Below the pieces are notes generated by a model. The model was given only the letters and a program-made list of their open reading frames with translations. It was not told where the DNA came from and ran no database searches. Of a stretch of 64,000 nucleotides of DNA, positions 9,687 to 41,198 are shown piece by piece. This stretch comes from Aminobacter aminovorans (lineage in GTDB: Bacteria; Pseudomonadota; Alphaproteobacteria; Rhizobiales; Rhizobiaceae). The stretch spans positions 124,001 to 188,000 of the forward strand of contig NZ_UFSM01000002.1 in NCBI RefSeq assembly GCF_900445235.1, written 5' to 3'. Made by a program: the position numbers and the translations under genes. The first letter of the stretch is position 1. Each line of letters opens with the position of its first letter.

Positions 9687-9783
9687 TTGACACTGATTCG
9701 GGGAAATGCGATTCTCTAGTTGTTCAGGCTATGAGAAGGGCTTCCACGACGGCAACGTTTTTGGGGGCCTTTTTCTTTTGCGT
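9687..9783 (+). ncRNA. Putative countertranscript RNA (incA/ctRNA) between repB and repC
   Basis: repABC plasmids encode a short antisense RNA in the repB-repC gap, on the strand opposite to repC. Here the plus strand has TTGACA at 9687-9692 and, 17 bp on, GATTCT, giving a start near 9720. A T-rich segment follows GGGGGCC at about 9765-9780. The location and orientation are as expected, but the transcript ends and the terminator hairpin are not clear by eye. It should down-regulate repC and act as an incompatibility determinant. Confidence 0.5.
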
Positions 9784-17689: not shown

Positions 17690-17701
17690 AGGCCGAAGAC
17701 C

Positions 17702-22350: not shown

Positions 22351-22367
22351 CCAGGAGGGGACCCATC

Positions 22368-23030
22368 ATGGCCGAGCGCGCACCGCCCGAAAACCCTTAT
22401 CTCGCCGCTCGCCAGGAATGGAACGAGCGCTACGGCTCCTACATAAGGGCTGCTGCAGCCTGGCGCATCGTCGGCATCGCCGGAATGGTCATGGCAGTGA
22501 TCGGCTTCTCTTATGCGCTGTTCCAGAGTACGCAAGTCAAGCTCGTCCCCTACATCGTGGAAGTCGACAAGCTTGGCACATCGGCACATGCGGGTTTCCC
22601 GCAGCAGATCGAATATGCCGACACGCGCGTGGTGCGCGCAACGCTCGGCGGTTTCGTCTCCAATTTCCGAAGTGTGACCCCTGATGCGGTGGTGCAAAAG
22701 CAGTACATTGACCGCACCTACGCGCTGTTGAGGACGTCAGACCCGGCGACCGAGAAGGTCAATGCGTGGTTCCGCTCGAGCTCACCTTTCGACAAGGCCA
22801 AGACCGCCACGGTCGCCATCGAGGTCAACAACATCGTGGCGCTCTCACCGCAAACGTTCCAGATCGACTGGACTGAATTCGAACGCGACCGCAAGGGCAA
22901 GGAGACGGCGGTGCGCCGCTTCCGCGGCATTGCCACAGTGACGCTGACCGCGCCGCAGGACGAGGGCGTCATCCGGCTCAATCCTATCGGTCTCTACCTT
23001 CGCGACTTCGACTGGACCGCGCAGCTATGA
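22368..23030 (+). CDS. trbF: TrbF (VirB8-like)
   Basis: This is a 220-residue bitopic inner-membrane protein. The cytoplasmic N terminus [19 protein letters not shown] is a clear TrbF signature, with one helix at about 35-55 and a periplasmic NTF2-like VirB8 domain to the end. It nucleates the T4SS core complex. AGGAGGGG lies just before the ATG. Confidence 0.95.
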
Positions 23031-23046
23031 AAGGCATAGCCCACCC

Positions 23047-23895
23047 ATGATCATTGCTATCAGAAACGTCGGTGCAACTCTCCCAATCGCGGCCACGCTT
23101 GTTGCGGCAATCGCCGCTGCTCCAACCTTTTCACAGAAATCCCATGCCGAGGGCATGAGTGCCAACGAGCAGAAGGGGACAGCAATTTCCGGACAATGGC
23201 GCGGAAAGAAAGGCCTCGTCACCAAGGGTGCCGACGGCAAAGTGATCTTCCTCTATGGCGAGATCCAGCCGTCGGTCGTCTGTTCGCCCTTGCAGGTATG
23301 CGACATCGAACTCCAAGCAGGCGAGGCGGTGCGCGACGTCCTCGTCGGCGATACGGTGCGCTGGAAGGTTGAGCCAGCGACTTCCGGCGCCATCGGCGGG
23401 CAGGCGATCCATCTGATCGTCAAGCCGTCGGAGCCGGATCTTGTTACGTCGATGGTGGTCACCACATCACGGCGAACCTACCACATCCAGCTCAAGTCGC
23501 ATCAAAACCAGTATATGGCGCGTGTCGGTTTTGAGTATCCGGAAGATGTGAGCGCAATACTGGCCGACATGAACGCTCGACTCGAGGCAAGCATAGTTCC
23601 AGGCGCCGGCGTTCCCGCTGAGCAATTGAATTTTCGCTATTCCGTCTCCGGCAATGCGCGTTGGCGCCCAACGCGGGTCTATTCCGACGGAACCAAGACC
23701 TACATCCAGTTTCCGAGATCGGTCTCCGGACAGGATGCGCCGGTGCTGTTCGTTGTTTCCGGGGGAGAGAACCGGGTCGTCAATTATCGGATGAAGGGCG
23801 ACATGATGGTGGTGGACTATCATATTGACCGCGCTGTCCTTGTCTCAGGCGTCGGCTGGAAACAGGAAAAGATCACCATCAGGCGAGGGGGCTGA
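23047..23895 (+). CDS. trbG: TrbG (VirB9-like)
   Basis: This 282-residue periplasmic/outer-membrane core component has an N-terminal signal segment (about 8-32) and a VirB9/TrbG/CagX domain covering the rest. Blocks such as [29 protein letters not shown] (only the family pattern is meant) lie near 138-165, and [23 protein letters not shown] text near 200-220. It forms the outer ring with TrbH and TrbI. Confidence 0.95.
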
Positions 23896-23896
23896 G

Positions 23897-24325
23897 ATGC
23901 GCGGGATCTTTGCCGTTCTGCTTTTGTCGTGCGCCGGTTGTCAGATGTCCACGACCGACGGCCTGGTCGCCAGTTCAGCGCCGCCTGAGATCTCGGGATC
24001 CGCTGCGAGCGCCATTGCAGGCGACATGGTGACCAAGCTTGCCGAACAGATTGGTCCTGCAACCGGCACCATCGTCTTGAAACCCGACAGCTCACCCTTC
24101 GGGCAGGCGCTCGAGGCGTCGCTGAAGAACTGGGGTTATGCCGTCGCCACCGACCAGAAGACCGACGGCCAGAAAGAAATCCCGCTCGCCTATGTCGTCG
24201 ACAGCCATGAGGGGCAGGTCCTTGTGCGAATGTCGACAAGTACCATTGAACTTGGACGCGCTTACCAGACGACAATGTCGGGGGCGTTTCCTGCAAGTCC
24301 GCTCTCTGTCATGCGCCGCGGATAG
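23897..24325 (+). CDS. trbH: TrbH lipoprotein
   Basis: This 142-residue small secreted protein has an N-terminal signal and lipobox ([11 protein letters not shown], lipid Cys near residue 13 or 16). It is probably an outer-membrane lipoprotein of the T4SS core, equivalent in position to VirB7. It begins one base after the trbG stop, with AGGCGAGGGGG as ribosome site inside trbG. Confidence 0.9.
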
Positions 24326-24337
24326 GGGAGGGGAGGA

Positions 24338-25645
24338 ATGGTTCAATCCTTGAAGCTGGGCGGTGCACCAAATGAGGAGAGCGGCTTTCATATCCGCCGC
24401 CTCAACCGGCTGCCGGTGATTGTGGCCGGCCTCCTGGTCATACTGTTCTTCGCCGTCATCATCTTTGGCCTCACGTCGCGCGGCCTGTTCTTTCGTGGTG
24501 ACGATACAATCGATCCCGCCTCGAATATCTCGGCATCAACATTCGCCGACCAACTGAAACGTGGAGTGTCGGACGGTATCATCGGCGAGCCGGCCGAAGC
24601 GACCACACTGCAACCGTCGCCGATTGCTCTGGCGGAGCCGCAGAAGGCGGCCGACAATCCGTTTGAAACCCGGCCACGCAGCGATAGGCAATCTGCCGAA
24701 CAGAGCGAACCCGAGGAGGTCTGGAAAGCTCGCCTCGAGCGCGAGCAGCGCGAGCAGTACATTCGTGAGCGCCATCGTCAGAAAATGGCACGGTTGCAGG
24801 CCAATGATGCTGCCTACGACTCGCCTCTTGCCATCAGCCTCAACAAGCTTGAGGCGACTGAAACGGGCGAACTGACGAACATCGGAAAAGCCCCGGCAGC
24901 ATCCGCAACCTCTCCCTCGGCTGCCAATCTCTATGCCGCGGCTCTCCAGGCGGGCATCGGCGGTCAGAACCTTGATCCGAATGGCCAGCGCTCCAAGGCA
25001 GATTTCTACAACGCTGACATGAGGGAACCCGGCTATCTGCCGAACAAGATCGTGCCGCAGCAATCGCCCTACGAGTTAAAACGCGGTTCGGTAATACCGG
25101 CGACATTGATCACCGGCATCAATTCGGCCCTGCCCGGCCGCATCACCGCCCAGGTCAGTCAGAACGTCTATGACAGCGCCACCGGTCATCGTCTGCTCGT
25201 TCCCCAGGGAACCAAGCTTTTCGGCCGTTACGACGCCGAGGTTTCGTTCGGCCAATCACGCGTGCTCGTTGTGTGGACCGACATCATCTTTCCGAATGGC
25301 TCGACTTTGCAGATCGGCGGCATGGCGGGCACGGACGCTGAAGGCAAGGGCGGCTTCAAAGACAAGGTCGACAACCATTATTTCAAGACCTTCGGCTCGG
25401 CGATCCTGCTCGCAATTATCGGCACCGGGATCGACATGGCTGTCCCCCAATCGTCGACGCGCGCCAACCAGGACCGAGCGTCCGATGCAGCCAGGCGGAA
25501 TTTCACCGAGACCTTCGGGCGGGTGGCAGAACGCACCATCAGCAAGAACCTCGACGTCCAACCGACCCTAGAAATCCGACTAGGCTACAAATTCAATGTT
25601 CTGGTCGACCAGGACATTATCTTTCCAAGTGCGTACGGCGGTTGA
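24338..25645 (+). CDS. trbI: TrbI (VirB10-like)
   Basis: This 435-residue protein has one inner-membrane helix at about 27-47 and a charged, disordered linker with EREQREQYIRERHRQKMARL near 130-150. A C-terminal VirB10/TrbI beta-barrel domain spans about 240-425 (YELKRGSVIPATLITGINSA, then VPQGTKLFGRYDAEVSFGQ). It spans the envelope and gates the T4SS outer channel. It is the last gene of the trb operon, and the next gene is convergent. Confidence 0.96.
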   Translation: MVQSLKLGGAPNEESGFHIRRLNRLPVIVAGLLVILFFAVIIFGLTSRGLFFRGDDTIDPASNISASTFADQLKRGVSDGIIGEPAEATTLQPSPIALAEPQKAADNPFETRPRSDRQSAEQSEPEEVWKARLEREQREQYIRERHRQKMARLQANDAAYDSPLAISLNKLEATETGELTNIGKAPAASATSPSAANLYAAALQAGIGGQNLDPNGQRSKADFYNADMREPGYLPNKIVPQQSPYELKRGSVIPATLITGINSALPGRITAQVSQNVYDSATGHRLLVPQGTKLFGRYDAEVSFGQSRVLVVWTDIIFPNGSTLQIGGMAGTDAEGKGGFKDKVDNHYFKTFGSAILLAIIGTGIDMAVPQSSTRANQDRASDAARRNFTETFGRVAERTISKNLDVQPTLEIRLGYKFNVLVDQDIIFPSAYGG

Positions 25646-27000: not shown

Positions 27001-27182
27001 TTGCTTCGTCGTTGCGATTAGCGCATCTCGATCCAAAAATGCGGTGCCCGAAAAGCCATAACGCGACATGACCGGCGAGCAGGGACATCGTCCCCCGCGT
27101 GAGGGCCTACATGCAAGATTGGAGACGTCAATCGCCAGATTGTGCGATTGCGTGACATTACCCGTCCGATACCCCAGGCGTT

Positions 27183-27923
27183 GTGAAATCGTTACAAATC
27201 TCTGAGCCCGGAGAAGTAATCTTGGACGGACAGATCACGTCACTCATTGATGCGCTCGACACATCAAACGACCAACGATCGATCCGGAGTGCGTTGAAGT
27301 CATTCTCGGTTGCTTGTGGCTTCGAACGCTTCGCCTATTTTGAGATAACGTCGAAGGACATTTCTACGCTCAACAGTTATCCGCCCGAGTGGCAGCATGA
27401 CTATCTGCAAAGCCAGTTTGCGCGTATCGACCCAGTCGTTACGATGGCAAAGCGCCTCATGCAAATGTTCGCCTGGTCTGCTCAGGATTGGCCAAGCCGC
27501 TATCTCACGACGGAAGAAAAGCGGTTCCGTTCCATGGCCAAGCAATACGGCCTCCGCTCCGGGCTGACGATTCCGGTGCAGGGCAGCTATGGCAGCATCC
27601 TGATGCTGTCACTCACATCTGCGCAGGCTACAAATCCGACGATTGGCAGCGTAGCGCGAGCGGAACAGGCGGTCCTGTACATACATCATCGGCTTCGCGC
27701 CATCGCCGACACCGAACTCATGAGTTGCTCTCTGCGCCTGTCATCTCAAGAGGCCGTATGCTTAAAATGGGCAGCGAAGGGAAAGTACATGCGAGAGATC
27801 TCACTCATTACCAATCTTCAGTATCGAACTGTCCAGTTCTATCTCGACAATGCCCGCAAGAAACTTGACGCGACCAATTTGGTGCAGGCCGTTTCAATCG
27901 CGAAAGACAAAAGAATTATCTGA
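27183..27923 (+). CDS. LuxR/TraR-family transcriptional regulator
   Basis: This is a 246-residue protein. The N-terminal autoinducer-binding domain (about 20-165) keeps Trp70, Tyr74, Asp83, Pro84 and Trp98, the usual acyl-homoserine-lactone pocket residues. The C-terminal GerE/LuxR helix-turn-helix spans about 185-240 (LSSQEAVCLKWAAKGKYMREI, then TVQFYLDNARKKL). The start is GTG. It lies 1.5 kb past the trb operon and is the best local candidate for the conjugation regulator TraR. No LuxI gene is adjacent; the nearest is near 40.0 kb. Confidence 0.88.
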   Translation: MKSLQISEPGEVILDGQITSLIDALDTSNDQRSIRSALKSFSVACGFERFAYFEITSKDISTLNSYPPEWQHDYLQSQFARIDPVVTMAKRLMQMFAWSAQDWPSRYLTTEEKRFRSMAKQYGLRSGLTIPVQGSYGSILMLSLTSAQATNPTIGSVARAEQAVLYIHHRLRAIADTELMSCSLRLSSQEAVCLKWAAKGKYMREISLITNLQYRTVQFYLDNARKKLDATNLVQAVSIAKDKRII

Positions 27924-28151
27924 CGAAATCCACCAGGCACCGGAGTGTATTCACCTAAGCTGACTACGCTTGATATCCACACGATGAATCGTAGGCTTGG
28001 AAAGCAGAAACTGGATTGATGATTCTGACCACTGCACCAAGCGCGGAGTGCTACATTAGCAGCCATTGCCTTAAAGACGATTTCCCTGACAGTGTTGACT
28101 CCATTTGCTACTCGTTCGAGTAATGGCGTTTCTCAAATCGGGGCGACACAT

Positions 28152-28625
28152 ATGGATGACGAAAACGATGCATCGGCAGTAACCGTCAAAACGGGCGACG
28201 GAATTGCTGTTACAAAGAAATCGCCGAGGCGTAAGAAGGCTGCGGAAGCCGGTAGTACTGCGTCAAAACCTGCGCCTGCAGAAAAGCCTAGCACCAAACG
28301 CAAGACCTACAGCCAAAGTGAGAGAGCCGAGAAGCTCAAGCTGATCAGCACAAAGGTCGCTGAGGGCAACAGCCCGCTGCAGGAAGTGGTCAAGAGCGCC
28401 GGGATATCGGTGCAGACCTACTACCAGTGGAAGCGCAGCGAAAAGCCTGCCGCCAAGAGGAATGAAGTGCCGGCCGCTCGGAAGGTCGTGAAGACCGCAA
28501 CTGGTGGCAATGATCTGGCCGAGCTCGTTCAGCTCGAAGCGGAAAACAATCGGCTTCGCGCCCTGCTGGCGGAAAAATTGCGCGCAGAAAACCTTGAGCT
28601 ACGCAAGAGGCTGGGGCTGAACTAG
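28152..28625 (+). CDS. SyrB-family regulator
   Basis: This 157-residue protein is homologous to rhizobial SyrB. It has a Lys/Ala/Pro-rich disordered N terminus, then YSQSERAEKLKLISTKVAEG, the HTH-like block VKSAGISVQTYYQWKR, and a C-terminal leucine-zipper-like helix LVQLEAENNRLRALLAEKLRAENLELRKRLGL (pattern only). The HTH resembles the one in IS3-type OrfA proteins. SyrB in Sinorhizobium was linked to repression of syrM, but the target here is unknown. ATG 28152 is chosen over an upstream TTG at 28092. Confidence 0.8.
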   Translation: MDDENDASAVTVKTGDGIAVTKKSPRRKKAAEAGSTASKPAPAEKPSTKRKTYSQSERAEKLKLISTKVAEGNSPLQEVVKSAGISVQTYYQWKRSEKPAAKRNEVPAARKVVKTATGGNDLAELVQLEAENNRLRALLAEKLRAENLELRKRLGLN

Positions 28626-30852: not shown

Positions 30853-31728
30853 GTGCCATTTGCCTCGCGGCGACCGGGAACCGTCGAGCGCTCCGCGCAT
30901 TTCGAAGGGGTGAACAGGGCAATTTCAACCATAGAACCGAACGGATCACCAGGCTGGACCATCAAACTGGGCGATTCACCGGTTGTTGGCACCGCCATCC
31001 ACAATGGTACTGACGTGAACAGTGCCTGCCGATCGCTGATGTGTCTGCCCGAACCGGAACGTCTGCGCGAGGAAGACCCTTACACTGAGCACTTCATTGC
31101 CGATTTCCCGACCCAGATCGTTGTTCATCGGTCGCGTTTTCAGGTCGACCTGAACCGCGCGCGTGATGCTGCGATCTACTTGGCGCCAGAACAATCCTGG
31201 GGTCTGAAAGTCTGGCAGCAGTCGCCCTCTGAAGACATCACAACGGAGGCTCTCGCCTTCCATGATGCCTATTACGCCGAGCTGAAGAGAGTGCTGACCG
31301 GAATCGAGCACCGACACGCTAAGTTCGTCCTAGTCGACGTCCACAGCTACAATCACCGGCGCGGTGGGCCCAAAGCAACACCTACGTCACAGGAAAAAGC
31401 GCCCGACATCAACATCGGCACGTTCTCTATGGACCGAAAGCGATGGGCGCCAATTATCGACCCATTCATCGAGGCGCTGCGTGGCCAATCCGTTAATGGC
31501 AAACCACTGGACGTACGCGAGAATATATCTTTCCAGGGCAAAGGCGAACAAACACGTTTCGTCCATGCCAACTTCCCCAAAACCGGTTGTGCCATTGCGG
31601 TAGAGTTTAAGAAGATTTTCATGGACGAATGGAACGGCGAGCCCGACCAGGCGACGATCAGCCAGTTGCGCACGATGCTGACGTCCACAATTCCTACCCT
31701 CGAGTCTGCGCTGCGAGACATGGCATGA
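30853..31728 (+). CDS. N-formylglutamate amidohydrolase-like protein
   Basis: This 291-residue protein is of the N-formylglutamate amidohydrolase family (COG3741/COG3931 type), zinc-dependent hydrolases that cleave N-acyl amino acids. Zinc-site elements visible are AIHNGTDV (His) and VDVHSYNHRR (Asp-x-His-Ser), with a later AVEFKKIFMDEW Glu-containing stretch. The first possible start is GTG 30853, preceded by AGGCG; GTG 30910 is an alternative. Its stop overlaps the next start (ATGA). No other histidine-degradation (hut) genes are near, so a role in histidine breakdown is unlikely. A role in the adjoining pathway is inferred. Confidence 0.85.
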   Translation: MPFASRRPGTVERSAHFEGVNRAISTIEPNGSPGWTIKLGDSPVVGTAIHNGTDVNSACRSLMCLPEPERLREEDPYTEHFIADFPTQIVVHRSRFQVDLNRARDAAIYLAPEQSWGLKVWQQSPSEDITTEALAFHDAYYAELKRVLTGIEHRHAKFVLVDVHSYNHRRGGPKATPTSQEKAPDINIGTFSMDRKRWAPIIDPFIEALRGQSVNGKPLDVRENISFQGKGEQTRFVHANFPKTGCAIAVEFKKIFMDEWNGEPDQATISQLRTMLTSTIPTLESALRDMA

Positions 31729-33593
31729 AGCCGAGGCTCGTAGACGAGGCATCACTCCTGGCTCCAATCGAAACAGGTCTCGATGCGCTGCTGAAAGAGG
31801 GCAAGCCCATTCGTCACGATTTCGCGGATGGCTGCCGTTTGCACATAGACAGGCCGCTTCCCTTTCTCTGCGTTTACGTCGGCCCCGGTCATGACGCGGC
31901 ATTCGACGCCGTGTCTGCCAGTGCTTCCTACTTGATCGCAACCGGGTCCAACCTCGCCGGCGAAGTAGCCCGGCTGGTGGCGACATCGATGCATGATCGC
32001 TGCGGTTCGTTTTTGATCATCGACATTGGCGAACTCGCCGAAGACCGCTTCCTGACCGACGACGCACCGTTCCTCCCACCCTTCGAAATTGCACTGGCGG
32101 GCGGAGACACGATAGAAGAAAAGGCAGCTCTGAGACGGTTCGCGGCCGCAGCCTCCAAGCGAGAGGCAAAGTACAGGACACCGCGCGTCGGCGACTTCAA
32201 CCCGGCCGCATCCGAAGAACCGCTGCTTTCAGATATTCTCGGCGATATACCGTGCCTGACCGTGCGTTTTGCGCCGATCTATCGGACGCCCGGCGGCAAA
32301 GGCACGTATCCAGCCTTGCGCGACCTTGTCGTAGCCAACATGGTCGACTCCGCGCTGCAGGCAGTCAGCGCCTTCCTCAAGGCATCGCAACTCGAACCTC
32401 CAACAACCCACCGTTCACTAGGGCGCCGGGTCTTCATTGACGCGGTTGCGCGCGCCGATCTTGACATAGACAAAGTTGCATCTGCTTTCGACTTCCTGCT
32501 GGCCGTTACACCTATCAATGCAGAGCAAGCTTGGCTGGAGTTCGAAGCAGGCGGGTTCGAGCGAGCACCCCATCTGCTTTATCGGCCTCTTGAGTTCCAG
32601 GTGACCGCCGAGAAACGGAAACTCTACTCAGTCTCGCTCGACCATCTTGAAGATCCGCTCCTTGCCGGACTGCTTTCCGAAAAACAGCAAGAACTTGACT
32701 TGCAACTATCGATGCTGGCGGCGCGCGAAACTCCACGATTCGCTGAACTCGGGCGTGCCCTCTACGGCCGCGTCGAGCCGGAACTTGCCGCAAGGGCTCG
32801 ACGCATTCTCGATAAGGCAACTGTCCTTGAGCCGGGGACAATGCAGAAGTGCCTCGACGCGGATGCAGTTGCTGCCGCAGCACGAGACATGATAGCCCGA
32901 TATCGCGCTAACTCCCCCGATTTCGAAGCATCCGTGGAAATTCGCTCGGATTTGCCTGCCGGCCTACTGGTCTCTAGAAACCGGCTGCTCGTCTCCCGGG
33001 ACACAAGGATCGCAATTGGGCGTCTGATGGCGTTGCTCAGTCACGAGATCGGCGTTCACCTGTTGACCTATTTCAACGGCGACATGCAGGGGCTTGCTAT
33101 CCTGCGCAGCGGCCTGGCCGGCTATGAGGGCATGCAGGAAGGGCTGGCGGTGCTGGCGGAATATCTCGTTGGCGGGATGACTGCGGCAAGGTTGCGGCTG
33201 ATTGCGGCGAGGGTTCTCGCATGCCAGGCGATGCTTGACGGGGCGAGGTTTGAGGAGACCTTCCGTTTCCTTCACGCGGATTTTGGTCTCGACCGCCGTA
33301 GCGCCTTCAACGTAGTGTTGCGTGTTTTCCGCGGCGGCGGTTTTGCCAAAGATGCCATCTATTTACGCGGCGTTGTGCAAGTGCTTGATCATTTAAGTCA
33401 CGGCGGCAGTCTGACACCCTTCTGGATTGGCAAGATCTCTGCAAACCATTTTGGTATCATCACGGAGCTGAGCGCGCGCGGCCTTTTACGAGCCCCGCGA
33501 CTAGAGCCGGCGTTCCTTTCTTCGGAAGTCGCGCGACCGCGCCTTAAAAAGGCGATCGCCGGGATGGATCCAATCGACATGATTGAAACTTGA
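31725..33593 (+). CDS. QEGLA/DUF1704 protein, MATCAP-like metallopeptidase homologue
   Basis: This is a 622-residue protein of the family labelled flavohemoglobin expression-modulating QEGLA motif protein (DUF1704). The C-terminal half carries HEIGVH (His440, Glu441, His445) and MQEGLA with Glu472. HExxxH plus a Glu about 30 residues on is the zinc site of the eukaryotic tyrosine carboxypeptidase MATCAP, which belongs to the same domain family. The N-terminal half (about 1-250) is of unknown fold. The start overlaps the previous stop by 4 bp, so the two are coupled. Substrate unknown; peptide trimming is an inference. Confidence 0.85.
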   Translation: MKPRLVDEASLLAPIETGLDALLKEGKPIRHDFADGCRLHIDRPLPFLCVYVGPGHDAAFDAVSASASYLIATGSNLAGEVARLVATSMHDRCGSFLIIDIGELAEDRFLTDDAPFLPPFEIALAGGDTIEEKAALRRFAAAASKREAKYRTPRVGDFNPAASEEPLLSDILGDIPCLTVRFAPIYRTPGGKGTYPALRDLVVANMVDSALQAVSAFLKASQLEPPTTHRSLGRRVFIDAVARADLDIDKVASAFDFLLAVTPINAEQAWLEFEAGGFERAPHLLYRPLEFQVTAEKRKLYSVSLDHLEDPLLAGLLSEKQQELDLQLSMLAARETPRFAELGRALYGRVEPELAARARRILDKATVLEPGTMQKCLDADAVAAAARDMIARYRANSPDFEASVEIRSDLPAGLLVSRNRLLVSRDTRIAIGRLMALLSHEIGVHLLTYFNGDMQGLAILRSGLAGYEGMQEGLAVLAEYLVGGMTAARLRLIAARVLACQAMLDGARFEETFRFLHADFGLDRRSAFNVVLRVFRGGGFAKDAIYLRGVVQVLDHLSHGGSLTPFWIGKISANHFGIITELSARGLLRAPRLEPAFLSSEVARPRLKKAIAGMDPIDMIET

Positions 33594-33603
33594 TGGAGTC
33601 CCG

Positions 33604-34650
33604 ATGCGCATTGCCCTCTTTGTCAATTCCGTTGAGAAAGAAACTGCTGGCTACACGACGACCACACTTTCCCTTACGGCAGTTCAGCGTGGACATTCGG
33701 TTGTTTATGTAGAACCCGGCGACTTCATCCTTCGGCCTGATGACAGCCTCGCCATCAGCGGCGTGGTTCTGCCTGCCGCCTCCTACAAGACCCCTGAAAA
33801 GCTGCACACGGCCCTGCTGGAGGCGAGTACCCAGAAGAAAACATTTGCCGCAGGCGATATCGATCTATTGTTTCTGCGCAATGACCCCTCGCTCGACGCT
33901 ACAGAACGACCATGGGCCGCCAATGCTGGTATCATGTTTGGGCGGCTTGCCGCGGAACGCGGCGTGATGGTGGTCAATGATCCGGACGGACTGGCCCAAG
34001 CGCAGAACAAGCTCTACCTCCAGGCATTCCCCGAAATAGTCAGGCCCACGACGCTGATTTCGCGCAGCATCACCGAAATACGCGCTTTCATCGACAACCA
34101 GCCGAAGGGCTGTATCGTCAAGCCGCTACAGGGATCGGGTGGCAAGAATGTCTTTCATATCGCTACCGCCGATGATTTCAATCTGAACCAGATATTCGAG
34201 GCGGCGAGCGGTGATGGCTATCTGATCGCCCAGGCCTATATTCCCGAGGCTAAAGCAGGTGACGTGCGTCTGTTCCTCCTTAACGGCCGCCCGCTGATGC
34301 GGGATGGCAGCTATGCGGCCTTTCGCCGGGTGCCAGCCAAAGGCGACGTTCGGTCCAATATCCATGCCGCAGGGACTTCGCGGAAGGTCAAGGTAACGGA
34401 CAAGATGTTGGCTCTGGCCGAGATTGTGCGCCCGAAGTTGGTGAACGACGGCATGTTTCTCGTCGGGCTCGACATTGTCGGCGACAAACTCCTTGAGATC
34501 AACGTCTTCACGCCAGGCGGACTGACAAGGCTCGCCACCATGTACAAAGCGGATTTTGCCGCAACTGTCATTGATGCGCTGGAAGAAAAGTTCGCGCTCA
34601 GACAAGCCTATGGAATGGCAATGTCCAATGCCCGCCTGGCGACGCTTTGA
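33604..34650 (+). CDS. Glutathione synthetase-like ATP-grasp ligase
   Basis: This 348-residue protein resembles prokaryotic glutathione synthetase (GshB). An N-terminal pre-ATP-grasp domain spans about 1-125 (LFLRNDPSLDATERPWAANAG, then VVNDPDGLAQAQNKLYL). The ATP-grasp core follows, with CIVKPLQGSGGKNVF near 171-185, LIAQAYIPEAKAGDVRLFL, and the metal site GLDIVGDKLLEINVFTPGGL near 292-311. Such enzymes join a carboxylate to an amine through an acyl phosphate. True GshB normally sits elsewhere, so this is probably a paralogue making another amide. ATG 33604 lies 10 bp after the previous stop. Confidence 0.88.
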   Translation: MRIALFVNSVEKETAGYTTTTLSLTAVQRGHSVVYVEPGDFILRPDDSLAISGVVLPAASYKTPEKLHTALLEASTQKKTFAAGDIDLLFLRNDPSLDATERPWAANAGIMFGRLAAERGVMVVNDPDGLAQAQNKLYLQAFPEIVRPTTLISRSITEIRAFIDNQPKGCIVKPLQGSGGKNVFHIATADDFNLNQIFEAASGDGYLIAQAYIPEAKAGDVRLFLLNGRPLMRDGSYAAFRRVPAKGDVRSNIHAAGTSRKVKVTDKMLALAEIVRPKLVNDGMFLVGLDIVGDKLLEINVFTPGGLTRLATMYKADFAATVIDALEEKFALRQAYGMAMSNARLATL

Positions 34651-35229
34651 AACTGGAGACACGAGTCAGCTGACCACGAGTTCCCGGAAAACGGTCTCGA
34701 TACCGACCTTTAGCGCCTGACCGTGGCTGCGCGCGAAGATTTCGCAACTTTGCCACGCGACGCGACGTTTCACGCGCTGTCCGGATCGGCGTTTCCATTA
34801 TGATCAACAACGCCAAAATCTTGCGACTTCGCTCCAACAGTCGCCTCCACGAAGCCTTCTGCGGCCAGTCCTCGACGTAGTAGTTCGCGAACTGCGGAAG
34901 CCCGGCTCGGCCGTTCCAGCTGCACAATTGACTGCAGAGCGACCCTGCTGGACAAACAAGCAGCGAGCAAGCTCGAACCTGCAGGAGATGAGCTTGACCG
35001 CCGGTTGCAAATTCATCTGCAGCGATGACGGAACGTCGGCCGTCTCAGTTACCCATCTTTCAGGGGGCAACCACCATCGGCTTCGCGCATTTTGTGCCAA
35101 GATACGGAACCCTGAAATCTCGCTAGCATAATCAGCGGCCTTGAAACGGGGTCAATCGCCAATTGTGGCGAGTGACAGATCCGCTTCGCTCGACCAGCTT
35201 CTCATCCAGCCCATGGTTGGAGATGAGAC
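34651..35229. other. Intergenic region before the kinase gene; no firm gene
   Basis: No supported gene is seen. A minus-strand frame at about 34770-34970 faintly resembles a ribbon-helix-helix protein. GTCAGCTGAC at 34664-34673 is a 10-bp palindrome. CTCATC at about 35201 and GATGAG at about 35221 could pair around the GGAG ribosome site of the next gene. Confidence 0.35.
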
Positions 35230-36198
35230 GTGACAAAAAGGCCAGAGAGTTCTCCTCACATGCCAGCTCCGCCGACCAAAGCCCTCCTGGTAGACCGATC
35301 AGGAGCGGGCCGGGCCGGCGCACATCATGGCGAGCTGATCCAGGGCGTCTTCCAGGATGAGAGGGGACGGCTTCATCGTGGATTGGTCACACTCCCGCTC
35401 AGTCACATGAGTTCCCTTGCGGTTTTCCGGATCACCGGCGGCCAAGGGGTTAGCGTGATGCCACCGGAGAAGACGAAGGCTGCAAAAGCAGCATCGCTGA
35501 CGCTGAGACACCTCAATAAAGATAGTCGAGGCGGCCTGCTCACTGTTGAAAGCACAATTCCTGTCGGACATGGATATGGCTCCTCCACCGCCGATGTCGT
35601 TGCCACGATTCGAGCTGTTGCCGATGCATTTGAGACCGGTCTCCGGCCCTCGGTCATCTCTCGCCTGGCGGTCGAGGCAGAGCAAGCCAGTGACGCGATA
35701 GCTTTTGAGGACCAGGCTGTCTTGTTTGCCCAGCGAGAAGGCTTGGTGATCGAGCATTTTGGCGACGCACTGCCGCCGATCCGCGTCATAGGTTTCAAAG
35801 CGAATGACGGTCAGTTGGTCGATACGCTTGCCTTGCCGCCGGCTCGCTACTCCAGTGAGGAGATCCAGACATTCTCTATGTTGAGAGGGCTGGCTGCCCG
35901 CTCGATACGGTTTCAGGACCCGCGGCTATTGGGGCAGGCCGCGACACTCAGCGCAAAGATCAGTCAACGTCATCTCCCAAAGGCGCAATTCTCGACTGCC
36001 CTAGGGATCGCCGAACAGGTTGACGCCTGCGGAGTTCAGGTCGCCCATAGCGGATCTCTCATTGGGATCATCCTGGATGCATCGGCGGTCGGCATCGCCG
36101 ATGCATCGCGCAGAATTGCGCATGCGGCGACCGCAGCCGGCTTCAAAGACGTGGTTGTGCAGTGGATCTATTCGGGGGGAGGCGCAGTTGAGATTTGA
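35230..36198 (+). CDS. GHMP-family kinase, PduX/L-threonine kinase-like
   Basis: This 322-residue protein has the GHMP fold. HHGELIQGVF near residues 32-41 resembles the substrate loop of PduX-type L-threonine kinases. The ATP-binding motif 2 is PVGHGYGSSTADV at 111-123; the SSTAD form is typical of PduX/BluE. By homology it would phosphorylate the side-chain hydroxyl of threonine or a related amino alcohol. No other cobalamin gene is present, so a cobamide role is unlikely here. The start is GTG with GGAG upstream; ATG 35260 is possible. It overlaps the next gene. Confidence 0.8.
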   Translation: MTKRPESSPHMPAPPTKALLVDRSGAGRAGAHHGELIQGVFQDERGRLHRGLVTLPLSHMSSLAVFRITGGQGVSVMPPEKTKAAKAASLTLRHLNKDSRGGLLTVESTIPVGHGYGSSTADVVATIRAVADAFETGLRPSVISRLAVEAEQASDAIAFEDQAVLFAQREGLVIEHFGDALPPIRVIGFKANDGQLVDTLALPPARYSSEEIQTFSMLRGLAARSIRFQDPRLLGQAATLSAKISQRHLPKAQFSTALGIAEQVDACGVQVAHSGSLIGIILDASAVGIADASRRIAHAATAAGFKDVVVQWIYSGGGAVEI

Positions 36199-37225
36199 TC
36201 CAGACTATTTCGAGGCGCTCGAGACGCCGCGCATGGCTCGGCTGGCAGAAAACGTGGTTGCCGCAGCTTTCCCGCTGATGAAACTGATGCCCGCCCGCTT
36301 CATCCTCGACCGAGCTGAAGCATCAGGCGAACTCAAAGCGAATGCGCATATTGTCGAGACCACCTCAGGCACATTCGGGATGGCGGTGGCACTCCTTGCA
36401 GCAGCGCGTGGCTATCGTTTGACGCTCGTCACCGCCTCAAGCCTGATGGATCCCAAGTATCAGGCACGACTTCAGCGCCTGGGCGCCGAGGTCATTGCAC
36501 TTGACGATCCCCGGGGCGACGGCAACCAGACTGGCCGGCTCGATAATCTGGGCAGCATATTGCACCGGGAGCCGGAGGCCTTTTGGACACGGCAGTACGA
36601 CAGTGATGGAAACTGGCTGGCTTACGCCCGGTTGGCCGATCTTTTAGTGCGCGCAATGGGCCAGATAGACTGCCTGGTTGGATGCATAGGAACTGGCGGT
36701 TCGCTCTGCGGTACCGGTACGTTCTTGCAAAGGGTTTTCCCCCATCTCAGGATTATTGGCGTCGACACCCACCGCAGCATCCTGTTTGGACAACCGCTCG
36801 GAAAACGGCTTCTCCGAGGCCTCGGCAACAGTGTCTTGCCCCGAAATGTACGCCACGAGCTAATAGACGAAATCCACTGGGTCGGTGCTTATCCAGCATT
36901 CCATGCCGCTCACCGCTTGTTCCGGCAGCATGGGATATTCATGGGTCCCACCAGCGGCGCCGCCGCCCTTGTCGGTCAGTGGGTGAGCAAGACCAGCCCG
37001 GACGCGCGGATCGCTGTGATCATGCCTGATGAAGGCCATCGGCATGCCGACACCGTTTACAGCGACATCTGGCTTTCCACCTTGCCTGGCTGGAGGACCC
37101 CGGCATCCACGACCCCGACGAAAATCTCCAGAATCGAACCCAGATCGGAGACAGCGTGGACCCGTTTCGACTGGCGTCGACGTCGTCTTGAGGATGTGAT
37201 GCGGCTCCAGTCAACGGAAGGCTGA
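36188..37225 (+). CDS. Cysteine synthase-like fold-type II PLP enzyme
   Basis: This 345-residue protein is of the cysteine synthase/cystathionine beta-synthase family. Ungapped comparison from VETTSGTFG back to the N terminus places Lys32 (FPLMKLMPAR) at the Schiff-base position. The usual SxKDR is replaced by LMKLM. TTSGTFG replaces TSGNTG in the substrate loop, and GCIGTGGSLCG is the PLP phosphate-binding loop. The start is taken as TTG 36188 because GGGGGGAGG lies just before it; it overlaps the kinase stop by 11 bp. It probably does beta-elimination or replacement on an activated amino acid, perhaps the phosphorylated kinase product. Confidence 0.82.
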   Translation: MRFDPDYFEALETPRMARLAENVVAAAFPLMKLMPARFILDRAEASGELKANAHIVETTSGTFGMAVALLAAARGYRLTLVTASSLMDPKYQARLQRLGAEVIALDDPRGDGNQTGRLDNLGSILHREPEAFWTRQYDSDGNWLAYARLADLLVRAMGQIDCLVGCIGTGGSLCGTGTFLQRVFPHLRIIGVDTHRSILFGQPLGKRLLRGLGNSVLPRNVRHELIDEIHWVGAYPAFHAAHRLFRQHGIFMGPTSGAAALVGQWVSKTSPDARIAVIMPDEGHRHADTVYSDIWLSTLPGWRTPASTTPTKISRIEPRSETAWTRFDWRRRRLEDVMRLQSTEG

Positions 37226-37251
37226 GCCGTAGTTCCGAATGATGGGAAACG

Positions 37252-38499
37252 TCACTGGCCATTTATGAACCAGGTCCAGGCATCCGCAGTCGTGTCGAAT
37301 GTCTGATAGCACAACTCCTTCGGGGCCGATCGATCGAGATCCTTCAGGCCACCAGCAGTAACGACCGCAACGACGCTGTCGCGTGCGCCAATCAGACCAC
37401 GATCAGCCAGCGTCCTTATCGCCATGAGAGGGGTAACCGATGCCAGTTCCGCAAAAATCCCCTCTCTCCTGGCGAGGAGAGACTGCATGTCGATCAGCCC
37501 ATCATTGGATACCGGTACTGCCTGGCCTGACGATTCCCGAAGTGCCTTGAGCGCCTGGTACGTACTGCGCGATGTGCCAATCGAAACAGCGAGAGGGTCG
37601 AACCGAACCTCCTGCTCCAGAACGTGATCGGTTCCTCGAGCGAGAGAGGCCGACAGCGAGCCGTGAACTTCTGCCGCAACCATTTTTGGCAAGCGGTCGA
37701 TGATGCCGTCGCAATAGAGCTCCCTGAACCCAGCCCACACGCCGGAGAGAGCGTCGCCATAGCAGACTGGCATGACGCACCAGTCTGGAACTTCACCAGC
37801 TCTTTGTTCGATGATTTCGTACGCGATCGTCTTGTAACCCTCGATGGCAAGCGGATGACCACCGACGACAGGAGCGCTGAAGGGAGACGTTATGAACCAG
37901 CCAAACCGCTCCTGCGCTTCAGCGAGGAACTTCCATCTGTCCACCTTGTTGACCAGCGGAATGACTATGGCGCCGTGTTTCCTGATCTGGGAAAGCATCG
38001 CGCCGGCCGTGCCCGCAAATGTTGCCACGACGCAGTCCATGTCTGCTCTTGCAGCGTAGGCGGCGAGCGAAGCACCGGCATTGCCGGATGAAGCCGTGGC
38101 CACGACGTTGGCGCCTTGCGCACGCGCAATCGATACCGCGACGGTAGAGAACCGGTCCTTGTAAGACCATGTCGGATTGCGGCCCTCATCCTTTATGAAA
38201 AGGTTGGTTGTGCCCAATGATGAGCCTATCCGCGGACAGGAGAGCAAGGGTGTCTGCCCTTCGCCCAAGGTGACCATGTCGGTGCCCGTGCATGGCAGCC
38301 TTGGGCCGCTTTTCCACAGTGACAAACCACCATGTGGTTCCCCGGCAACAGTGCCGCCAATCACGGGCCGCCCGTAGATTGGTGCCAGGTTGGCGGGGGC
38401 GACCGGCGCGCAGATCGGACACCCCCTGGAGTCGATTGTCATCGATGTGGGATAATGTGTCTCGCACCTAATGCAGGAATAGCCTGTTACGCGGCCCAC
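37252..38499 (-). CDS. Threonine synthase-like PLP enzyme
   Basis: This 415-residue fold-type II PLP enzyme has an N-terminal zinc-ribbon (Cys9, Cys12, Cys27, Cys30), as in many archaeal-type threonine synthases. PTWSYKDR carries the Schiff-base Lys114, and SSGNAGAS near 137-144 is the substrate/PLP loop. True threonine synthase converts O-phosphohomoserine to threonine. Here, next to a phosphorylating kinase and a second PLP enzyme, a different phosphoamino-acid substrate is likely. The start is GTG with GGTGGAG upstream. It is convergent with the cysteine-synthase-like gene (26-bp gap) and divergent from the XRE gene. Confidence 0.87.
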   Translation of the reverse strand: MGRVTGYSCIRCETHYPTSMTIDSRGCPICAPVAPANLAPIYGRPVIGGTVAGEPHGGLSLWKSGPRLPCTGTDMVTLGEGQTPLLSCPRIGSSLGTTNLFIKDEGRNPTWSYKDRFSTVAVSIARAQGANVVATASSGNAGASLAAYAARADMDCVVATFAGTAGAMLSQIRKHGAIVIPLVNKVDRWKFLAEAQERFGWFITSPFSAPVVGGHPLAIEGYKTIAYEIIEQRAGEVPDWCVMPVCYGDALSGVWAGFRELYCDGIIDRLPKMVAAEVHGSLSASLARGTDHVLEQEVRFDPLAVSIGTSRSTYQALKALRESSGQAVPVSNDGLIDMQSLLARREGIFAELASVTPLMAIRTLADRGLIGARDSVVAVVTAGGLKDLDRSAPKELCYQTFDTTADAWTWFINGQ

Positions 38500-38666
38500 G
38501 ATTGAAACTCCACCGCTGGCGTGAATGTAACGGCGACTGCAAGAACCAGAACGTACGGAGCAACTCGGATGGCTCGTCCATACCAGTGCTTTGCATGGTC
38601 TTCAGATGTAGCGCAGTTGAACTTCCGATGCTGAGACGCCTGCTTCATCGTTCCTCTCAAAGGATT

Positions 38667-38723
38667 GCGAGTCTATACTCGCCCTTGAAACAGGCATATC
38701 GGTTGAAGTCAATCGAAATGACT
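38667..38723. promoter_or_regulatory. Two dyads between the threonine-synthase-like and XRE genes
   Basis: GCGAGTCTATACTCGC at 38667-38682 has 6-bp arms, and AGTCA (38707-38711) pairs with TGACT (38719-38723). Both lie in the 273-bp divergent intergenic region, 50-105 bp before the XRE gene, and are candidate operators for it. Confidence 0.4.
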
Positions 38724-38772
38724 CCTAAAGTGTGCCATTCTATAGTGATCAAACAAGGCGGCTGTGCGAAAC

Positions 38773-39027
38773 ATGAATCTACGTTACCGACTGGGCATCA
38801 ATGTGCGTCGGCTGCGCAAGGAACGAGAACTGTCGCAAGAGAGGCTCTCGATTCTCTCCGGCCTCTCTCGTGCGTACGTAAGCAGCGTGGAGACGGGGCG
38901 CCGCAACGCAACGTTGGACACTCTGGAAATCCTGGCGAGGACCCTTGGGGTCGAGGGCTTCGATCTGATCGCGCCATCCAACTCATGTGATGCTACGCCT
39001 GACAATGATAGCAACGAAGAAAGCTGA
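38773..39027 (+). CDS. XRE-family helix-turn-helix regulator
   Basis: This 84-residue protein is almost entirely a Cro/CI-type HTH: LRYRLGINVRRLRKERELSQ, then LSGLSRAYVSSVETGRRNATL at about residues 30-50. This size is typical of restriction-modification C proteins and of small stand-alone XRE repressors. It is transcribed away from the threonine-synthase-like gene and likely controls the shared intergenic region. ATG 38773 is preferred; GTG 38764 is in frame. Confidence 0.85.
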   Translation: MNLRYRLGINVRRLRKERELSQERLSILSGLSRAYVSSVETGRRNATLDTLEILARTLGVEGFDLIAPSNSCDATPDNDSNEES

Positions 39028-39174
39028 TATCTTTTATGCGGCTTTCAAAGCTCATTCTAAGACAAAAATTTGCTATTGACCGCAATGGCGTCAGCGTCTT
39101 TATGTAACCGACAAACAACTTCGATACTACCTTCGTCAAATTGCACTGCTTCTCGAATTGCGATTGCTTCCTTT

Positions 39175-39960
39175 ATGCTTTCTACGCCTTGGGAGGCCAC
39201 GATACGGATCGATGACGAAATAGTAATCCTTGAACTCGCCCAGGCAGCGTCGGAGTTTTCGGAGATAAGGACGACAGCCGAGGTCCTAAAGGCCCTGCAG
39301 GGCCATCTTGCACATTATGGTTTCAGCGACCTTCTAATCACCGGCCTGCCCGTTCCGGAAGATCGATATTGGCACCGCGAGGTCCTCTGCGATGGATGGC
39401 GTCAAGACTGGTATCGTCGTTATGTCGAGGAGGGGCATTTTCAACATGACCCTTGCGTGGCTCGATGCAGACATCGCCCATTCCCCTTCTTGTGGAGCGA
39501 TTTGAAACCTGAGGTCATGTCACCGCGCGCAAAATTGGTGATGGACGAGGCGCGGGACTTTGCGATGAACGACGGCCTGTGCGTACCAATCCATATCCCC
39601 TTCCGGGGACCTGCAGTGGTAACAGCGGCCGGGGACAAAATAGAGCTATCTCCATTTGCCCGGCCTCTGGTCGAAGCTCTGTGCCTGAAAGCCTTTCAAG
39701 CCGTATGTCGCCTTGAGGGACTCCTTGACCTCGAATGCGGGCCAATCCTGGGGCAACGAGAAGCAGAAGTGCTTCAGTGGAGTGCCGCGGGCAAATCCGC
39801 GGAAGTCATCGCGATCATTTTGAACGTATCGACATATACGGTTCAGTCGCATCTCCGCCACATCCGCGAAAAGCTGGGCGCAAACAACGTCCAGCGAGCG
39901 ATCACCAAGGGACTGGTTCTTGGTGAAATCCAGGCGGGCAATGACAAGATCTGGCGATAG
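39175..39960 (+). CDS. LuxR-family quorum-sensing regulator
   Basis: This is a 261-residue protein. The autoinducer-binding domain (about 35-180) keeps the aromatic pocket (Trp79, Tyr80, Tyr83, Asp92, Pro93, Trp107). The GerE-type HTH is at about 193-250 (LGQREAEVLQWSAAGKSAEVI, then TVQSHLRHIREKLG). ATG 39175 is chosen; the frame extends upstream without homology. It lies 42 bp before a LuxI gene on the same strand, so the two form a standard luxR-luxI pair and probably one transcript. Confidence 0.92.
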   Translation: MLSTPWEATIRIDDEIVILELAQAASEFSEIRTTAEVLKALQGHLAHYGFSDLLITGLPVPEDRYWHREVLCDGWRQDWYRRYVEEGHFQHDPCVARCRHRPFPFLWSDLKPEVMSPRAKLVMDEARDFAMNDGLCVPIHIPFRGPAVVTAAGDKIELSPFARPLVEALCLKAFQAVCRLEGLLDLECGPILGQREAEVLQWSAAGKSAEVIAIILNVSTYTVQSHLRHIREKLGANNVQRAITKGLVLGEIQAGNDKIWR

Positions 39961-40002
39961 TGACGATCACGCCAGCTTTCTACAATTGGCACGGAGGTCG
40001 CC

Positions 40003-40653
40003 ATGGGTCGCATTGTCGTCGTCGATTGGTCAAACCGGAAGCTGTTTCAGAGACAGTTGGAGAGACATTTCCGACTGCGTCACGAAATCTACGTCGCCGA
40101 AAGAAAGTGGCAGGCGATTGCCCGGCCTATCGACATCGAGATGGACGCTTTCGATACGGAACATGCAATTTACCTGCTTGCTCTGGATCGCTCCGGCGAC
40201 GTCATAGGCGGTTCCCGGTTGGTCCCGACGACCTGCCCACATCTGCTTGGTGATGTCTTTCCACAACTTGCCAATGGCTCACCACCTCGCGCCGCCGACA
40301 TCCATGAATGGACACGCTTCTTCGTTGCATTCCCCTATCGCACAGCGGGCAAACCCGCCCGCCTGGCGGGGGAGGTGCTCTGCGGTCTGCTCGAGGCTAG
40401 CTTGCAGTTGGGAACTCGACAGATCAGCGTCGTTTGCGAGGCGTTCTGGCCGGAGCGACTGAGATCGCTGGGCTGGTCGGTGGCGATCCTGGGCGAACGA
40501 CTGCAGCTTGAGGACGGCGAAATAGTTGGCGCACTCATCGAGGTCACGCAGCCGGCACTGGACGCCACCAGACGTTCTTACGGCATAGAAGGATCGGTCT
40601 TGCATATGACGGACTCGCTGTCGCCGATCCGTGCGACGGACGCGGCGCGATAG
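40003..40653 (+). CDS. Acyl-homoserine-lactone synthase (LuxI family)
   Basis: This is a 216-residue autoinducer synthase. The invariant residues are present: Arg26 in LRHEIYVAERKW, Trp36, Asp48 and Asp51 (EMDAFDTE), Arg72 (GGSRLVPT), and Glu102 and Arg105 (HEWTRFF). It makes an N-acyl-homoserine lactone from S-adenosylmethionine and an acyl carrier protein thioester. The acyl chain cannot be told from sequence. GGAGGTCGCC precedes the ATG. TraI of Ti-type plasmids would normally head the trb operon; here the synthase lies 14 kb downstream of it. Confidence 0.95.
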   Translation: MGRIVVVDWSNRKLFQRQLERHFRLRHEIYVAERKWQAIARPIDIEMDAFDTEHAIYLLALDRSGDVIGGSRLVPTTCPHLLGDVFPQLANGSPPRAADIHEWTRFFVAFPYRTAGKPARLAGEVLCGLLEASLQLGTRQISVVCEAFWPERLRSLGWSVAILGERLQLEDGEIVGALIEVTQPALDATRRSYGIEGSVLHMTDSLSPIRATDAAR

Positions 40654-40655
40654 AC

Positions 40656-41198
40656 ATGAGACTGTCAAACCTAGAGCTCTGCCTCGGTAAGCTTCTGCTC
40701 TCCGATGAAAATCGCGCGACAGCATTCGATATTGATGGCGACCAAGAGGAGTTCTCAGGGGGACAATTTCGGGAAATCTTCGATCGCCTCCGACGCAGCC
40801 CGCATCAGGAAGCCATTCATGCGTTCAGCGTTGCCCACGCGGATAGCACGGTTGGCTTTTTCGTTCTCCGAGAAGCGCCTGCACTGCCCGACTGGGCGTT
40901 CCCCGGCGTGATGACGCTGCACAACTTTCGGATCAGCAGACAGTTCCAGCGCCAGGGCCTGGGCGCCGCCACAGTCCGGAAGATGGCGCAATGGGTGGCT
41001 GACAACCGCCCGGCAGTTTCGCAGTTGATGTTGTCCGTAAATAGTGGAAACGAACAGGCGTTAGCCTTCTACCGGAGCTGCAGCTTCCGGGCGACTGGCG
41101 TTACCCTTGATGGGCGCATTAGCCGCGAAATGATCATGGCAAGCGAAATTGCCGCCCTCCTGGTCGATGCTGAGCTGGCGGCGCGCCCACTCGAATAG
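40656..41198 (+). CDS. GNAT-family N-acetyltransferase
   Basis: This 180-residue protein has the GNAT core: FRISRQFQRQGLGAATVRKM contains the acetyl-CoA pyrophosphate loop (RQGLGA), followed by LMLSVNSGNEQALAFYRSCSF, the typical beta5/alpha4 segment. It transfers an acyl group from acyl-CoA to an amine; the substrate is unknown. It begins two bases after the luxI stop, so it is in the luxRI operon. It could modify the product of the upstream pathway. Confidence 0.87.
   Translation: MRLSNLELCLGKLLLSDENRATAFDIDGDQEEFSGGQFREIFDRLRRSPHQEAIHAFSVAHADSTVGFFVLREAPALPDWAFPGVMTLHNFRISRQFQRQGLGAATVRKMAQWVADNRPAVSQLMLSVNSGNEQALAFYRSCSFRATGVTLDGRISREMIMASEIAALLVDAELAARPLE

Follow-up and report, generated by a model that had tools for sequence, protein, structure and literature searches.

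An apparently undescribed quorum-linked make-and-reclaim gene cassette, predicted to serve an amino-acid derivative, on a plasmid of Aminobacter aminovorans

The subject of this study is a group of ten genes in a stretch of 64,000 nucleotides (the window) from Aminobacter aminovorans (RefSeq assembly GCF_900445235.1, contig NZ_UFSM01000002.1, positions 124,001 to 188,000). The contig holding the window (C2, 420,426 bp) carries repABC at window positions ~8446-11936 and trb genes at 15945-25642, and is therefore a plasmid. A first-pass annotation had read the ten genes as six enzymes of one pathway followed by regulators and an acetyltransferase; the positions of the genes and the families named for them are borne out by Pfam and NCBIfam matches, with the corrections given below. 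We divide the region into unit A (30853-34650), which comprises the FGase, MATCAP/QEGLA and GshB-like genes, and unit B (35151-41198), which runs from the kinase through the GNAT acetyltransferase. Loci and genomes used for comparison carry L and G numbers.

Unit B begins with a predicted amino-acid kinase of the GHMP family (35230..36198, plus strand; Pfam GHMP_kinases_N 48.3 bits), in which the motif around GSSTADV is conserved. The name PduX-like given to it earlier is not supported as an equivalog, the best NCBIfam model being mevalonate kinase with 34.9 bits against a cut-off of 403; matches in the direction of the PduX L-threonine kinase are of GHMP level only, and no cob or pdu gene is present in the annotated cassette-plasmid neighbourhoods examined. 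Next comes an SbnA-like pyridoxal phosphate (PLP) enzyme of the predicted beta-replacement type (36188..37225, plus strand; Pfam PALP, best NCBIfam model SbnA; MKLMPAR subfamily), whose TTG start codon at 36188 precedes the kinase stop codon at 36196-36198, an overlap already noted in the first pass. The threonine-synthase-like (ThrC-like) PLP enzyme, a predicted lyase with an N-terminal CxxC ribbon (37252..38499; Pfam and NCBIfam matches), is encoded on the minus strand, so the six enzymes do not form a single operon. Four plus-strand genes complete the unit: a small XRE-family regulator (38773..39027; Pfam HTH_3 50 bits), a LuxR-type receptor of acyl-homoserine lactone (AHL) (39178..39960; Autoind_bind 84.8 and GerE 54.2 bits), a LuxI-type AHL synthase (40003..40653; Autoind_synth, PF00765, 65.8 bits, the sole PF00765 match in the genome) and a GNAT acetyltransferase (40656..41198; Pfam match), a homologue of which is fused to an SbnA-like enzyme elsewhere. 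All three models matched by the LuxR-LuxI pair score above their cut-offs.

The three plus-strand genes of unit A lie outside this cassette. They encode an FGase-like protein (30853..31728), a MATCAP/QEGLA protein (31725..33593; TIGR02421 362.1 bits, above the cut-off of 338.65) and a GshB-like ATP-grasp protein (33583..34650) that belongs to PRK12458, a glutathione synthetase subfamily (466.6 bits, cut-off 408). The first had been called an N-formylglutamate amidohydrolase; this stands at the level of the Pfam FGase family (81.6 bits) and fails at that of HutG (TIGR02017, 27.9 bits against 278.75). The MATCAP start overlaps the FGase stop (ATGA at 31725-31728), as stated before, and the annotation of A. 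aminovorans plasmid pAA02 likewise has a 4-base overlap there. Between the end of the GshB-like gene (34650) and the start codon of the kinase (35230) lie ~580 bp.

The distribution of the two units among relatives is informative. Ten Aminobacter genomes include seven with a kinase match and six with a MATCAP match: both are found in four, the kinase alone in three, MATCAP alone in two and neither in one. Where both occur they may be far apart (364 kb in G003, 45 kb in G001). Unit A is complete in four genomes (L104-L107) with no unit B gene within the 15-20 kb read, L107 having merely a 26% LuxR match that resembles the second luxR of the window (see below). Conversely, in A. carboxidus (L015) and in G006 (L016), the left flank (trb genes, the second luxR and two small genes) joins unit B directly, with no unit A between. 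Units A and B are adjacent in the window, in L014 and in pAA02; unit A genes occur within 10 kb of the kinase at 2 of 33 kinase loci. The comparison indicates that these are two separate units which are neighbours by chance in the window. For its description of the product as amide-linked, the first pass drew on the ATP-grasp ligase and the peptidase; both belong to unit A, which leaves this description without support.

We now consider whether unit B recurs as a set. The 33 kinase loci (genus search 9, family search 20, order search 4; the kinase fragments L010, L022 and L023 were excluded beforehand) were collected without regard to gene context, and neighbours were counted within 10 kb of the kinase by tblastn (E 1e-6, at least 30% identity; Ehu 60%, XRE 40%, LuxR 35%). 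The SbnA-like gene is present at all 33 loci, the ThrC-like gene at 27, XRE at 24, LuxR at 23, LuxI at 22, GNAT at 16, an Ehu-type transporter at 13 and a DoeB-like deacetylase gene at 11. The co-conservation that could be looked for among all six enzymes is found among the unit B genes and does not extend to unit A. Since the 30 kinase-positive genomes carry only 67 PF00765 matches, part of them fragments, we estimate that chance would place luxI within 10 kb of fewer than 1% of the kinase genes; the proposed link of the enzymes to quorum sensing is upheld by this count together with the operator-like elements described below. In 23 other loci, the identity of the five shared proteins to their counterparts in the window is 37-98%, and unit B is on that account not a chance grouping. 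Pairwise distances of the kinase, SbnA-like, ThrC-like, LuxR and LuxI proteins correlate with r 0.82-0.93 over the 24 loci having all five genes (L056 and L080 dropped), and for each of the 10 protein pairs none of 2000 permutations reaches the observed r, to which host kinship may add.

The kinase is found in 7 of 10 genomes of the genus, in 24 of 394 of the family (E 1e-10) and in 5 of 397 of the order (E 1e-25); these samples overlap to give 30 different kinase-positive genomes, the genome of the window being counted in both family and order. Named plasmids bearing the cassette include pMLb of Mesorhizobium japonicum MAFF 303099, a plasmid of Mesorhizobium B2-1-1, pUSP2 of Aminobacter MSH1 and two Bosea plasmids. 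It is not restricted to plasmids, because the contigs that carry it in L067 and L072 measure 5.4 and 8.4 Mb. Taken together, the comparison supports the kinase and the SbnA-like enzyme as a fixed pair and LuxR-LuxI as part of the cassette, and the gene logic of unit B as a conserved mobile cassette is well supported.

Two further observations concern the fate of cassette copies. In pAA02 (L049 16001-21991), the kinase and the SbnA-like enzyme are 97% and 92% identical to those of the window while the ThrC-like, LuxR, LuxI and GNAT proteins are ~60-73% identical, a mosaic that suggests recombination between the SbnA and ThrC genes. Broken genes or degraded extra copies, in pieces only, are seen in Aminobacter and relatives (L022 9792-11902, L023 9541-9941, L018 11312-12005, and L080).

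The intergenic DNA of unit B holds candidate regulatory sites. A 26-bp imperfect palindrome, the K-box (35151..35176), lies 79 bp before the kinase start and is a putative quorum-sensing operator. It is conserved in 5/5 close relatives and was established by phylogenetic footprinting, a simple dyad search not being sufficient. Scanning positions -60 to -90 of 43 kinase loci reveals a K-box-like element in 25 of them (one hand-picked), placed at -65 to -87. The L-box (39938..39960), an operator-like element 65 bp before luxI, is weak in the window alone (p 0.04). There are 21 loci that have both a K-box and luxI; when each is searched with its own K-box, the best match within 150 bp of luxI falls between -55 and -72 for 20 of them, against 14% with shuffled K-boxes; the mean match is 14.6/23 versus 12.0 shuffled, with a set-level maximum of 12.8 in 2000 draws. 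Both boxes are also present in the held-out loci L100 (-83, -66) and L101 (-80, -73), the two of four that have a K-box.

A second, solo luxR (27183..27923, plus strand; Pfam Autoind_bind 101 bits) adjoins the trb operon and is preceded by a K-box-like element (27127..27156) that is conserved 5/5 within poorly alignable DNA. When C2 is scanned with a matrix built from five sites of this group, four non-overlapping sites outscore all of 30 shuffles (maximum 19.0): before the kinase and luxI (both training sites), before the second luxR, and inside an ABC-transporter gene. The second-luxR site ranks second in the plasmid scan though it is outside the training set. The comparison thus supports an operator-like element common to the kinase operon, luxI and the second luxR, and this luxR, next to trb, is a probable member of the same regulon. 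We infer that LuxR rather than XRE binds the putative shared palindromes, and LuxR with the LuxI-made AHL is most likely the switch that acts through them. The XRE gene has a candidate site of its own: a conserved island (38716..38738) between the divergent ThrC-like and XRE genes, within which AAATGACTCCTAAAGTGTGCCAT is invariant in 5/5 close relatives, is a possible XRE operator or promoter of autoregulatory type. A small protein with an HTH_Tnp_1 transposase domain (window 28092-28625) is conserved in relatives, where it likewise flanks the cassette on the left.

We turn to the chemistry that the enzymes may carry out. The SbnA-like enzyme scores 191.4 bits with the SbnA equivalog TIGR03945, below the cut-off of 349.95, and 142 bits with a cysteine synthase model; its nearest solved structures are those of Staphylococcus aureus SbnA. 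In SbnA, according to an excerpt of the published account (PMC12414870), Lys47 binds PLP while Arg132, Tyr152 and Ser185 select O-phosphoserine. These residues align to K32, R117, Y137 and G168 of the cassette enzyme, all four invariant in 28 aligned homologues chosen from 43. Because the phosphoserine-selecting residues are mostly kept and the kinase is adjacent, the phosphoamino acid from the neighbouring kinase is likely to be what the enzyme acts on first. Fusions of the SbnA-like protein with a GNAT domain are encoded on three plasmids, each from a different genus (Cupriavidus taiwanensis, Paraburkholderia phymatum and Mesorhizobium L-2-11). These fusions support GNAT as a working partner of the SbnA-like enzyme, and the GNAT protein of the window therefore probably acetylates the product of that enzyme. 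The earlier proposal of an amino-acid-derived, acylated product is in this respect probably right.

Gene order in other loci adds detail to the biosynthetic (make) half. Mesorhizobium INR15 has genes for the kinase, SbnA, a transporter of the major facilitator superfamily and GNAT, in this order, and the same locus (L109 4157-14414) holds genes for MmgE/PrpD, Lrp and an 800-aa E1/transketolase-like enzyme. This last enzyme (L050 7411-9789 and homologues) lies within 10 kb of the kinase at 5 of 33 genome loci and stands with a divergent Lrp gene on pMLb, B2-1-1 and Paracoccus plasmids. A Lrp and E1/transketolase-like pair at C2 95-98 kb was considered as cassette-linked and rejected: its 939-aa open reading frame has 28% identity to the cassette enzyme and is taken for pyruvate dehydrogenase E1. 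Related kinase-SbnA pairs accompanied by an ATP-grasp enzyme and an ArgH-like lyase occur in Azospirillum and Streptomyces (L051 9932-15730, L052 9920-14670), beside nonribosomal peptide synthetase genes in Streptomyces NBC_01707; these sets we take to be diaminobutyrate pathways. In Rhizobium and Pelagibacterium (L053 9094-13585, L063 7528-11530), a GHMP kinase gene instead has partners for a nucleotidyltransferase, a CDP-alcohol phosphatidyltransferase and an Asn-synthase-like protein, sets that may make an unusual phospholipid head group.

The ThrC-like enzyme points to the second half of the system. It scores 138.2 bits with the threonine synthase model TIGR00260, below the cut-off of 167.1, and the SxKD motif is found by pattern in 31 of 33 ThrC-like proteins, although the one of L065 is a different stretch. 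In INR15 (L095) and P. phymatum (L098), the ThrC-like gene is accompanied by an amino-acid ABC importer, a DoeB-like deacetylase and an M24 hydrolase, and the kinase is not beside it; the INR15 reclaim half (L095 576-8134) lies ~20-25 kb from the make half on the same plasmid. Importer and deacetylase adjoin the cassette in MSH1 and Bosea. On C2 itself, EhuB-D-C-A, DoeB-like, GntR and M24 genes are present at 217389-223434 (the EhuB-like protein at ~222652-223434), ~52 kb beyond unit B and outside the window; the M24 protein is far from DoeA. The comparison supports the occurrence of ThrC-like enzymes in uptake and degradation sets, with the remaining parts elsewhere on the plasmid of the window. 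Ectoine degradation has been proposed to run through DoeA and then DoeB, which acts on N-acetyl-diaminobutyrate (excerpt of PMC5924519). EhuB homologues of INR15 (L095, 233.4 bits) and L057 (210.6 bits) exceed the EhuB cut-off of 190.9 (TIGR02995). At the positions of Glu and Phe in EhuB, presumably ectoine contacts, the homologues from these loci carry Arg and Ser/Ala (Gly and Tyr in L095). Because these residues differ, the ligand is suggested to be related to, but different from, ectoine.

Several of these pieces, namely the operator-like elements, the fusion proteins, the uptake and deacetylation genes of C2 and the second luxR with its element, were missed in the first pass. Combining the pieces, a pathway can be drawn, the chemistry of which, product class included, we infer. 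The kinase would convert serine or threonine to O-phospho-L-serine or O-phospho-L-threonine; the SbnA-like enzyme would eliminate the phosphate and add an amine, giving 2,3-diaminopropionate, 2,3-diaminobutyrate or a close N-substituted analogue; and GNAT would N-acetylate this to a product analogous to the N-acetyl-diaminobutyrates found in ectoine metabolism. Once the importer had recovered the product, the deacetylase would free the diamino acid and the ThrC-like enzyme would eliminate its beta substituent. AHL-bound LuxR would turn on the cassette at high cell density. That unit B serves one quorum-controlled acetylated 2,3-diamino acid, made at high density, re-imported and degraded, is the reading we prefer, with a probability of roughly 0.5. 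A more specific version, in which the acetylated ectoine-like diamino acid made from serine or threonine is exported as a 'self-opine' that only carriers re-import and degrade, serving as a private density-controlled resource or as a second signal tied to plasmid transfer, is speculative and we hold it to be unlikely.

A number of observations weigh against the acetylated diamino acid reading. At the enzyme level, Ser185 of SbnA is replaced by the invariant Gly (G168). No match to an argininosuccinate lyase/ArgH-like lyase or ATP-grasp partner was obtained on C2 at E 1e-10 (the chromosome being outside this search), and the annotated neighbourhoods, to which the search was confined, hold no ornithine-cyclodeaminase-type (SbnB-like) gene; with these partners missing, the reading gives no account of how a free diamino acid would be released. 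In the reclaim half, the deacetylase of the window's plasmid has 275 bits with DoeB (TIGR02994, cut-off 402.7), its EhuB has 188.1 bits, just under the cut-off, and the putative ectoine contacts are altered in the cassette-linked homologues. The GntR regulator of the uptake operon (L119 10552-11355, C2 ~218.6-219.4 kb) passes the HutC cut-off (234.3 against 220), and distant ThrC-like genes lie beside hutPH in Cytobacillus (L096) and beside a metal ATPase in Mycobacterium, so that a histidine-related or some other role is possible.

The regulatory and neighbourhood evidence has its exceptions as well. Neither box was found in held-out L102, nor a K-box in L103, where the stretch contains no luxI; between -60 and -90 no K-box was found at the luxI loci L021, L056, L071, L074 and L078. 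With a broader matrix (17 K-boxes and 10 L-boxes) the kinase site alone, at 19.7, exceeds the maximum of 19.6 reached in 20 shuffles of the window, a less clear result than that of the five-site matrix, and the fourth site of the plasmid scan, C2 292931, lies inside coding sequence and is treated as chance rather than as an operator. No luxI is seen at 11 of 33 loci: a contig end is nearby in four (L017, L076, L082, L103), and none was found in the stretch read at L018, L075, L077, L079, L081, L083 and L084. GNAT is not seen at 7 of 22 luxI loci (L015, L066, L071, L074, L100, L101, L102), the stretch stopping just beyond luxI in L071, L074 and L102. Lastly, the loci are mutually related and hence not independent tests.

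Among other explanations, the product may be a whole N-(2-amino-2-carboxyethyl)-amino acid, acetylated and re-imported as an opine-like nutrient or metal chelator. Ethylenediamine disuccinate (EDDS) is a parallel to such a product. The nearest characterised enzyme, SbnA, makes N-(2-amino-2-carboxyethyl)-L-glutamate (ACEGA; excerpt of PMC12414870), a whole product of this type would agree with the missing release partners, and the Arg that replaces the EhuB Glu at most loci fits a more acidic ligand. However, the annotated neighbourhoods examined hold no TonB-dependent receptor or siderophore gene, and the DoeB-like deacetylase is similar to enzymes that act on N-acetylated diamino acids; we give this alternative a minor chance. 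The missing Ser185 equivalent could also mean that the SbnA-like enzyme uses sulfide or another thiol, yielding acetylated cysteine, beta-methylcysteine or a thioether. Its fold family includes cysteine synthases, and the Paracoccus plasmid L056 has cysND ~9 kb away from its kinase gene; yet the SbnA model is clearly the better one and no sulfur-assimilation gene is near the cassette in the annotated neighbourhoods examined, which makes a thiol product improbable.

The remaining alternatives concern what the quorum genes do. LuxR-LuxI could be the conjugation switch of the plasmid, with the enzymes as mere riders outside its control: the trb operon and repABC are inside the same window, trb or other type IV secretion genes lie near the cassette or kinase in L056, L057, L058, L064 and L109, and the second luxR beside trb has its own K-box-like element. 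The conserved K-box before the kinase is difficult to reconcile with this, as is the presence of luxI with kinase-SbnA at 22 of 33 loci, two of them on contigs larger than 5 Mb (L067, L072), and we consider it quite unlikely, while control of both transfer and enzymes is possible. A role of the enzymes in producing or altering the quorum-sensing signal, such as a non-standard head group or acyl precursor of it, would agree with the tight luxI linkage and with the report, in an excerpt of PMC10470506, that a gene adjoining the M. japonicum luxI I1 is required for an unusual AHL; kinase-SbnA pairs without luxI in the stretch read at L051, L052, L054 and L061 render it very improbable. The single six-enzyme pathway of the first-pass annotation, suggested by adjacency in three replicons, is hardly credible: we rule it out from the independent occurrence of kinase and MATCAP, the layouts of L015/L016 and L104-L107, and the linkage at 2 of 33 loci.

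Known systems offer partial parallels to the acetylated diamino acid reading. In the staphyloferrin B route of S. aureus (SbnI, SbnA, SbnB; excerpt of PMC12414870), an amino-acid kinase likewise feeds an SbnA-type PLP synthase, and the cassette enzyme keeps the equivalents of the PLP lysine, Arg132 and Tyr152. The cassette differs in its GHMP kinase, GNAT and LuxR-LuxI, in the sub-equivalog score and shorter N-terminus of its enzyme (first aligned residue 31, against 46 in SbnA), and in the lack of an SbnB-like gene from the annotated neighbourhoods examined. SbnI is a kinase of another family than GHMP. In the pacidamycin and friulimicin clusters, the diaminobutyrate genes are a threonine kinase and a cysteine-synthase-like enzyme; the Azospirillum and Streptomyces pairs are of this type, unlike the plasmid of the window with its unmatched lyase and ATP-grasp partners. 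The ectoine uptake and degradation system (EhuABCD, DoeA, DoeB, EutB) shares the EhuB-type importer, a DoeB-like deacetylase, an M24 hydrolase and a PLP lyase, and differs in model scores, in the M24 protein and in the proposed ligand. Opines and rhizopines are private amino-acid derivatives with plasmid-coded synthesis, uptake and catabolism, together with quorum sensing; unlike them, the cassette product would be made and used by the free bacterium, with different enzymes. LuxR-linked biosynthetic gene clusters (PMC5872303) similarly join biosynthesis genes with a LuxR regulator, and the main text of that paper is without the words Mesorhizobium, Aminobacter, cysteine synthase, kinase, pyridoxal and threonine.

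No description of the cassette was found in the open-access literature searched, and the quorum-linked make-and-reclaim cassette is real and apparently undescribed. Its few genes seem to direct the synthesis of an amino-acid derivative under the control of a luxR-luxI pair of their own. M. japonicum MAFF 303099 has four LuxI homologues, with the product of I1 reported (excerpt of PMC10470506); as it also carries the cassette on pMLb, the cassette would provide a candidate output for an orphan quorum circuit. With predicted operators, a binding protein and a pathway of three enzymes, the matter is open to direct test, and the outcome would show whether metabolism, besides transfer, is under quorum control on rhizobial plasmids.

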